A stretch of DNA of 64,000 nt, taken from Owenia fusiformis. Taxonomy: Eukaryota; Annelida; Polychaeta; Sabellida; Oweniidae. A program made the translations under genes and the position numbers. The stretch covers positions 19,721,520 through 19,785,519 of the forward strand of contig CAIIXF020000012.1 of NCBI GenBank assembly GCA_903813345.2, written 5' to 3'. Of the stretch, positions 3,198 to 60,505 are shown piece by piece. The first letter of the stretch is position 1. Every line of letters starts with the position of its first letter. Below the pieces are notes generated by a model, which did not search any database, was not told the origin of the DNA, and worked only from the letters and a program-made list of their open reading frames with translations.

Positions 3198-6100
3198 GTG
3201 AGTAAGCTTAACTTTTTTATCATTGCAAATGTATGTGTTATTCTGTGGGTGACCTATGGAAAAGGAAACTGGGCATACCATATCTACTGGGTATGTCATG
3301 GATCTCAAGGATAGCAAGATGTCGTGGATTTTATCAACATTTGGATGGACTGACTTTTTCACATCAGTCCTTAGCACAGGATTTCAGTATATTCATTTTG
3401 TGTTTTCAATATTCAACAATTTGTATATGTTGTATTTACACCTTGCGAATCTCTAAAAAATCAAAAACTAAAAACTTCATAACTTTCCCTCACTTTGAAT
3501 CCAGCTTACTTTACATGGTTATCCTCAGGATTTTTTCTCAAGTGGGTGCAATTAGTTGTCATTTCTACAATTCAGATCAAAATACATGTAGGTCAAAATA
3601 TGCCTATTTTTCATGATATTCTCATTTTCAAGTGGGTGCAATTGGATTTCCAAGTGGGTGCAAGCCTGTTTTCAAAATCTCAGGTGGGTGGTGCTCCCAC
3701 TTGCTTTAATGCTGGAGAGATCACTGCTTTATATTATGTTCTCCAAAGGAAATTCTTTTTTACGATGCAATATTTTTATTTCAAAATTCTGTCCAATAAC
3801 AATCATTGAATATTTCAGGTGTTTTGCCTCTTTAAGAAGAACCTAGGCATCGTTAACCTGAGGTTTGACCTGACATGGGATGTCATTGTGGTCTACTTCT
3901 TCCTGCTCATAGTAGAGCTTAATGTACTGCGGATGTTGGTAAGTATTATATATAGTGAAATCTGTGTATGTAGAACACCTCTTGTACTTGTTCTACTTAT
4001 TGGCATGTTCCACTTTCAAAGTTCAGTTAACATTTTTAGTCAAGGGACTCTAAACATGTTCTACTATAATTCCACAGCCAATCTCTATTTGTACCCAATG
4101 GTACCATTTTAGCTATATGGTAGTGTAGTCTCAAACAGTACTGACTACAGTACCTTGAACACTATACTGCACCATACTCAAATGGTACCGGTACCACACA
4201 GTACCATGCTCTTAATGTACCATATGGTTCCGTGGTTTCAGGGTGCTGATTGTGGTGTATATGTTCTGTTTACAGCTATTTAGATGAAACTAGAAAGTTT
4301 ACTTATCAAATCCTTAATTTTTGTTTTTATAGTGAGGTAATATTATGCCATAATGTAATGTAAAATGTACCATGATATATCGTCATCATTTCTGTGAGTT
4401 TTAGGGGAGAGAAAATATGATTAGTTTCACATTAGATCCGGTGGTGAAATTGGGGGAGGCTATAGTATCTCCCATTCAAATAGTGGAGATAAATCTTACT
4501 TAAAATCACAATGAAATGAAACTATTTAAAAGGATATAAAGTGGATGCTGCCCAAATGATTTTACCCATATTATCAACATCTGGAATTCGATAATGATTT
4601 CTTGCGGAAAATTAGAAATCATAGATTAAAACCAGGTTCATTGCCTCTGAAATTCTGATATGCTCTAGTTTGAAAAACCCTTATCAACTCTAATCATCTT
4701 GGATTTCCAAGATCTGAAGATTTCATAATTGAATTCAGCTCTTATCATACATAGTAAAACCACTATTTAACACCCCTTTTTAATACACATCAAAAAATGT
4801 AATCACCTTTAGTGAATACTTTTTCATGGATCCTAAAATACTTTATGATCTGAGGGTTGATATCATGGATATACAGGCTTCCATGTTTTATAGCCAACAT
4901 AACCATTAAGCTTCAATATAAAGGGCCATTCAGCTCAATGAAATAAGTTCAACCTATAAAATCAGAAATAAAATCTTTATTGGCCATATCAAAGTGGATC
5001 TAACAATATAAAAGTGTAACAAGTACATACATACATTAGTTCTCTGTGTTCACTACATTCTTATTGTTTAACCATGTGAGACACTTATTTGAGGGCTGTA
5101 TGTATTAGTGAAAAATGTTCAAAATGTTGGTGATTCATTTTTAACCTTTATTTTCATTATAATGGTTTCTTATTGAAAGAAAATCAAGTTGCTAAACTGA
5201 CCCATTTATTGAAAATAATGAAAATCTGAAAATGATTACCTGTTTATGGAATAGAACAAGATTTTTGCTCATAATTGAGTTTTGGACTTTTTGGGTCATT
5301 TTCATAATATTTGATTCTAGTTTTACTGAAATATCAAACATAAAGCCACATTTTCAGACAATAAGTATCATAACAGACACAAACATCACATATGGGTATG
5401 GGTATATGGGTACTCTCAAGCAACCTTAAATATGACTTTGGTATATAAATGCAATAAAATAAAAAGAGGCACCAACTTAAAAGAAAAACACAGTATGAGG
5501 TCTACATGCAGTAACTAAAAGCATTGTTTTATTTTCAAATTGCTTGTACTGATAACTACCTTGATAATTATTTTTATCATATTCCTGCAAGAATGAATTT
5601 TGATCCATCATGGTATTTCACATGACTGAAGCAATACATTGGTTTAACAGTATGGCTAAAATGAATTTCTGAATACTTTGATATTACTAGAATATGTCCT
5701 CTATAAGTACAAGTACAAATGTTCCCAATGACCAAAGAATACTGTACTTGTGATTGTAAATCAGAGTGCAAGTTACCTTTGAGTAAATATTTGACACCTT
5801 CTTGTTAAACCTGTTGGTTTAGGAAAATAGCACTTTAGTTACACATTAAATAAATACACAGTTTCAGAAATGTTGATTTAGCACATATATGAGTGAATGG
5901 ACTGAATGGAATTGTTTCCCCAAGGCTTATCTAAATCAGGTCATAATGTATTTCCATGTGTGAATTATTTCAGCTCTTGTTAAGCGTTATACCCCCCCCC
6001 CCTTGCCCTTCCATATGTATATTCATGAACCTATTATGCTTACATTCCAGTACCCTCTTTTCCAACAGTTCTAGTTCCTCATGAAGATTAAAGCCAGGGA

Positions 6101-60505: not shown

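Follow-up and report, generated by a model that had tools for sequence, protein, structure and literature searches.

Tandem repeats lying over exon/intron boundaries were named 'mirages' in the lancelet Adh3 gene, and PMC3087553 also describes them in the lancelet globin genes BflGb6 and BflGb9, with units of 10 to 160 bp and on both sides of exons. A second paper (PMC3902484) describes a mirage in lancelet PGBD5 and cites one in troponin C. The arrays described here, in a SUR-type (ABCC8/9-like) gene of the annelid Owenia fusiformis, resemble the lancelet mirages in that their units cross an exon/intron boundary and carry the splice site together with coding bases, donor and acceptor sides are both hit and unit lengths are variable; in lancelets the normal product is apparently unaffected, as may be so here. 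They differ in that the host is an annelid (protostome), that a single gene has seven of its junctions involved while its paralog has seven clusters, and that a positional null was applied. Length instability, between haplotypes or somatic, belongs to the definition of a mirage; the Owenia arrays are known from one haploid assembly, from sequence alone. No earlier annelid report of mirages was found among the literature matches listed, which covered few subscription papers. We read the Owenia arrays as an annelid case, unusually dense, of a phenomenon already known in kind, the new elements being its presence in this phylum, how dense it is, and a positional test whose result was replicated in a paralog; what had been a lancelet curiosity would thereby extend to annelids, where a single gene can have 7 of its 33 exons affected.

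Two other systems invite comparison. Intron gain via tandem genomic duplication was reportedly the subject of a study of potato RdRp (PMC4974935), and intron gain by tandem duplication is also said to be covered by an AGGT model. The Owenia arrays share with these the tandem duplication of splice signals within a gene, but they copy existing junctions into existing introns and do not bound a new intron. Introners are mobile, dispersed elements; there, as here, the copied sequence contains splice sites, but each Owenia unit reproduces the edge of the exon beside it, and the array at exon 4, the only one searched genome-wide, lies at one genomic place.

The window, by which we mean the whole stretch of DNA analysed (64,000 nucleotides), holds a plus-strand gene to which protein P0008 was a near-exact (98%) match among the database matches. 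Spliced alignment gave a model of 33 exons with 0 mismatches over 1636 aa and GT-AG introns throughout, and the exon numbering used in an earlier note on this DNA agrees with the rebuilt model. Local blastn was used to look in the intron of each junction for copies of that junction and of as many as 150 bases to its left and right, a copy being accepted when it held at least 8 exon bases and the junction. Copies in the neighbouring intron were found at exactly seven junctions, five acceptors (exons 3, 4, 9, 15 and 33) and two donors (exons 24 and 29), affecting both exon sides and recovering 7/7 of the junctions that the earlier note had named. Exons 18 and 23 gave only weak exon-only matches to their own introns (20 and 30 bases), with no junction copied. 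The features are as follows, in window coordinates.

2739..60505, plus strand: SUR-type (ABCC8/9-like) gene, 33 coding exons, spliced match to the annotated Owenia fusiformis protein P0008.
6006..6867, plus strand: exon 3 acceptor cluster; diverged copy at 6006-6109, 36-bp x 18 array at 6134-6776, real exon from 6799.
9043..9366, plus strand: exon 4 acceptor array; 65 bp x 5 with 32 exon bases, the last copy being the real site (exon from 9335); four intact decoy acceptors.
12630..13772, plus strand: exon 9 acceptor cluster; ~91-bp units at 12630-12705 (76%), 12676-12771 (94%) and 13649-13703, real exon from 13704.
12772..13648, no strand given: 877-bp insertion within an exon 9 copy; 9-bp target-site duplication GGATCCAGT at 12763-12771 and 13649-13657.
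15029..15151, plus strand: exon 11 polypyrimidine-region array; 32-bp x 4, no splice site copied.
17050..18187, plus strand: exon 15 acceptor cluster; 46-bp and 174-bp units, real exon from 18180.
37078..37578, plus strand: exon 24 donor array; 26 bp x ~16 with 12-19 exon bases, real exon ends at 37090.
43180..44443, plus strand: exon 29 donor array; 70 bp x 18 with 48 exon bases, the first copy being the real donor (exon ends at 43227); 17 decoy donors.
45069-52318, minus strand: P0121 gene, fibrinogen-domain protein of 376 aa; complete, 3 exons, inside SUR intron 29, with an exact 3-exon model.
59646..60418, plus strand: exon 33 acceptor array; 128 bp x 6 with 51 exon bases, the last copy being the real acceptor (exon from 60368); five decoys.

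Two of the seven, at exons 3 and 9, are interrupted duplications and not clean arrays. The exon 3 acceptor has a single diverged and old copy (70% identity, 69 exon bases), and the 36-bp x 18 array now lies between this copy and the real site. The exon 9 copies, with up to 69 exon bases, are split by the 877-bp insertion, whose target-site duplication indicates that the copy existed first and that the insertion was a separate, later event. A minus-strand frame in this insertion presumably resembles a LINE reverse-transcriptase tail; a Pfam search of the insertion gave no match. Exon 15 is a marginal case, with a 174-bp unit present twice and just 8 exon bases in the copy. At exon 11 the polypyrimidine region was claimed to be copied, and this was borne out, the splice site being absent from the copies. 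A dispersed mobile element was considered as the source of the exon 4 array and rejected, given one match in the 498-Mb genome (very common words skipped). Because unit lengths differ among the SUR junction arrays, they are independent events, as the earlier note had held and as the paralog described below agrees.

Traces of how the arrays formed and grew were seen at some of them. At the three SUR junction clusters, of seven, whose array edges could be read for it, microhomology is present: ACCAG at exon 33, TAGT at exon 29 and, if one later substitution is allowed for, CTC at exon 4. Such 3-5 bases would be as expected from end-joining or template-switch duplication. In the exon 29 array a set of three variants carried by copies 8-10 returns five units further on, in copies 13-15, suggesting that the array later grew by moving blocks of units. 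Copy 1 of the exon 33 array has 7 differences, compared with 0-2 in the other five copies; edge units more distinct than inner ones were not seen in the exon 29 or exon 4 arrays. We consider it probable that the SUR arrays are mirage minisatellites, arising by microhomology-mediated duplication of a junction followed by minisatellite expansion, with the decoys spliced out as intron. A segment of ~26-174 bp that happened to cross an exon/intron boundary would have been duplicated in tandem, probably because its two ends shared a few bases of microhomology. In this repeat-rich genome the copies would then have multiplied and homogenised like any minisatellite, by slippage during replication or by unequal exchange. 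With only the copy beside the exon body keeping the frame, and exon definition presumably favouring the closest pair of sites, the protein would stay unchanged; all further copies would be removed as intron despite their many intact sites.

Self-comparison of the whole window by self-blast, limited to direct repeats with an offset of at most 1500 and an E value no higher than 1e-3, gave 21 repeat clusters, 19 of them inside the SUR gene, and a real junction is spanned by 7/19 (37%). For the null, each array was collapsed to one unit and segments of equal length were placed randomly on the gene, with exon-only segments excluded and, in one version, whole-exon segments as well. The expectation was 1.7-2.0 clusters (P 0.0006-0.002), and hence the junction excess claimed for this gene in the earlier note stands, though it put the share of arrays seeded by junctions too high, at about half. 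Without exon 15 the count was 6/19 (P 0.003-0.008). When positions were restricted to within 2000, 1000 or 500 bp of an exon, P was 0.002, 0.005 and 0.005, respectively, and with exon 15 dropped as well it was 0.008-0.017 (0.017 at 500 bp). Clusters of at least 92% identity crossed a junction in 5/11 cases against 1.0 expected (P 0.002; without exon 15 4/11, P 0.010), and those below 92% in 2/8, with no significant excess (P 0.15). These SUR P values are post hoc, since the SUR clusters gave rise to the hypothesis. A null minus four clusters (three clusters of dispersed repeats and one 497-bp duplication) gave P 1.5e-5 to 2e-4, a smaller value on which we do not rely because the clusters were removed after the data had been seen. 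The nested P0121 gene, left out of the junction counts as a gene, has one repeat cluster in its span (48440-48574), 162 bp away from its nearest exon. The ZCCHC8-like gene on the right flank was also excluded from the cluster counts, its model being partial: three exons are identical to its protein and the full spliced model differs from it. Two clusters lie within or just beyond the span of these three exact exons, none across a junction, and a third touches only a model exon of doubtful standing.

The excess recurs in a paralog of the SUR gene, P0022, located on the minus strand at C12:5.35-5.39 Mb, 14 Mb from the SUR gene, and chosen because its protein showed a repeat. Its spliced model, from 35 kb of DNA, is identical to the protein over 1595 residues (22-1616 of 1616), residues 1-21 falling outside the 35 kb modelled. 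Seven of its 12 clusters lie across a junction against 2.3 expected (P 0.002), at donors as well as acceptors, and 6/11 against 2.1 (P 0.007) when the array that prompted its choice is left out; ahead of one exon, for example, stand about three copies of the acceptor with 51 coding bases. Inheritance of the arrays from a common ancestor was rejected, since both paralogs have junction arrays only at SUR introns 8 and 14, with different units and, at intron 8, on opposite sides of the intron; the pattern arose independently in P0022. All seven array-bearing SUR introns (2, 3, 8, 14, 24, 29 and 32) have counterparts in P0022, and we take these introns to predate the arrays for that reason. By a strict column test, nine other SUR intron positions (1, 4, 5, 12, 13 and 19-22) are unmatched in the paralog; some of these may be intron gains or losses and some alignment noise. 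In a further array of the P0022 gene (L023, G000:C12:5363189-5363690), nearly the whole of an 85-bp exon that corresponds to SUR exon 15 is present in four tandem copies. The three decoys among them have kept the acceptor but no longer have a donor, which is what selection against donors on whole-exon copies might produce.

For two MRP1-like genes on C5 the models were built from homologous proteins, not from the genes' own annotation; an exon was kept if both proteins located it or if it had the same length in the two genes, and the rest were dropped before the count. These genes hold 5 and 2 clusters, of which 1/7 lies across a junction against 1.3 expected, that is, with no excess; one cluster of MRP_B (10102-10222) holds 7 exon bases, one below threshold, and was scored as a miss. 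A self-alignment with a positional null, of the kind that the earlier note had proposed as a check for all genes of this genome and its relatives, gave, over four genes, an excess in SUR and P0022 and none in the two MRP1-like genes. Pooled, the four genes have 15/38 clusters across a junction against 5.3 expected (P 5e-5). Clusters per kilobase are more numerous in the two SUR genes than in the two MRP genes (P 0.018), and the difference in junction share (14/31 versus 1/7) is not significant (Fisher P 0.21). In the two SUR genes the junction excess is fairly solid; for the genome as a whole it is unproven, the two MRP1-like genes being without excess.

The excess could be due to survivorship and detection only: duplications would fall evenly near exons, exonic ones would be purged, and junction ones would stay visible longer through their constrained copy. 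We give this account, taken by itself, a little under an even chance. It accords with the absence of any exon-only cluster in SUR or P0022 in the self-comparison, with the MRP1-like genes at expectation, and with the SUR non-junction clusters lying somewhat nearer to exons than random positions (median 376 versus 847 bp; P 0.15, not significant). Weighting points the same way. With junction copies given a twofold or threefold detectable lifetime, their exon part being constrained in one copy, P for SUR rose to 0.02 and 0.09, respectively; twofold weight gave P 0.04 for P0022 (0.08 without the prompting array) and 15/38 against 9.0 expected for the four genes pooled (P 0.017). Against it stand the young clusters of the SUR gene, for lifetime should hardly matter at 92% identity or more and the excess there was 5/11 over 1.0.

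That short tandem duplications arise by mutation preferentially at splice junctions, which would then be hotspots owing, for instance, to R-loops, transcription-coupled breaks or polypyrimidine-tract slippage, is in our view unlikely. Such a bias would fit the excess in both SUR paralogs (7/19 with 1.7 expected and 7/12 with 2.3), its strength in the pooled set, and its persistence in SUR among the most similar copies and within 500 bp of exons. The two MRP1-like genes, however, sit at expectation, arrays also occur on the donor side, where a polypyrimidine tract is absent, and twofold to threefold lifetime weights weaken the signal in SUR, the paralog and the pool alike. The earlier note had offered a mutation bias and a selection filter as a pair; the excess fits either, but junction-specific mutation is unsupported, given the MRP1-like genes and the share of the signal that a twofold to threefold bias removes. 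We favour a mixture, in which the excess is probably in part due to mutation near exons and in part to the longer survival or detectability of copies with a constrained exon edge, and we lean towards the filter and detection bias as the larger part, with mutation bias the smaller.

The mirage reading places intact but unused sites in the introns, and these were scored with a matrix trained on the gene's own 32 + 32 sites. Four decoy acceptors of exon 4 score 13.0-13.2 against 13.2 for the real one, 17/17 decoy donors of exon 29 equal the real donor (10.4), and the five decoy acceptors of exon 33 score 9.2-11.6 (real 11.6). GT is retained in 13/14 pattern-matched copies of the exon 24 donor, with scores of 3.5-8.6 (real 8.6). 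The two decoys of exon 15 reach 6.3-7.7 (real 10.6), the exon 9 decoy at 12727 reaches 10.4 (real 13.1), a second, older exon 9 copy being without AG, and the exon 3 decoy at 6051 scores 5.1 (real 10.5). By this measure the decoy sites are mostly intact. The annotated protein P0008 uses array-edge sites only. Use of a decoy is predicted to give early stops at exons 3, 4, 9, 15 and 24, a stop or frameshift at exon 29 (its first decoy a frameshift), and at exon 33 an end of 19 residues that all five decoys share, apart from one substitution in one of them, its stop falling in the last exon. As any decoy examined gives a stop or frameshift, the real site is the copy that touches the exon body. 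The earlier note had stressed the consistent direction of the arrays, and the real site does always adjoin the exon body; as evidence on mechanism this is worthless, since only the exon-adjoining copy keeps the reading frame, whatever the mechanism.

A functional role of the decoys in regulated isoforms, such as a SUR protein truncated after ...TIIVLDQ via the exon 33 decoys or a 30-residue insertion in the paralog, appears improbable to us. A stop codon in the last exon generally escapes nonsense-mediated decay, and the shared end of the exon 33 decoys would suit such a role, as would the annotated P0022 protein, which contains a copy with intact frame. The decoys of exons 3, 4, 9, 15, 24 and 29 give only the disruptive outcomes above, array positions are mostly unshared between the paralogs, and, according to PMC10632439, the aligner STAR can falsely join repeats and so invent introns between them. 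The P0022 protein has an exact internal repeat of 31 residues with a period of 30, ending at the residue that matches the SUR exon 8 donor, which is explained by one copy of a 13-copy array being read as a 90-bp exon. Only 2/12 decoy copies in this array are frame-keeping in length, the other ten being one base longer; our alignment took one of the two, and the annotators may have used the other. The annotated exon is possibly a mapping artefact, the Owenia annotation, of 26,966 genes, having been built with STAR alignments, as stated in PMC9977687. It could also be a new exon in the making, an origin that the lancelet authors proposed for such arrays in PMC3087553, and it is our nearest candidate for intron gain by tandem duplication. 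Since an array copy is annotated as an exon here, decoys may not always be silent.

An assembly artefact, with repeats collapsed or expanded in the reference, is very improbable: the arrays are near-identical, assemblies can get copy number wrong and the lancelet authors (PMC3087553) report one aberrantly assembled array, but the Owenia PacBio reads (N50 25.75-30.75 kb, as given in PMC9977687) are long enough to span the arrays, the longest in SUR being at most 2.5 kb, the copies bear distinct variants, one exon 9 copy is split by an insertion with a target-site duplication, and the pattern recurs in a second gene, P0022.

Mirage minisatellites of this kind would provide a natural test of how the spliceosome chooses among up to 18 equal sites. 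They would likewise test the proposal that exon and intron gain draws on duplicated junctions, and they carry a warning for annotation, as identical decoy sites can mislead read mapping. A further-reaching proposal, which we regard as doubtful, is that in Owenia, and perhaps in lancelets, the edges of spliced exons are hotspots of tandem duplication that steadily seed introns with intact duplicate splice sites, a standing raw material for new exons and introns, with the 90-bp in-frame exon of P0022 as a case caught in the act.

Two minor observations concern other repeats of the SUR gene. The clusters 24455-24784, 33870-34362 and 56581-57069 have TTCAAAATGGC-like sequence in common and look, by this resemblance, like one dispersed repeat family and not separate minisatellites. 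Exon 16 with both flanking junctions (window 18644-18821, 178 bp) has a second copy ~100 kb downstream (L007, G000:C12:19840586-19841556), the sole single-copy match of at least 97% identity between the window and 200 kb of flanks; it consists of two pieces (97.5% and 98.5%) interrupted by a stretch of ~795 bp, with inverted-repeat matches nearby.
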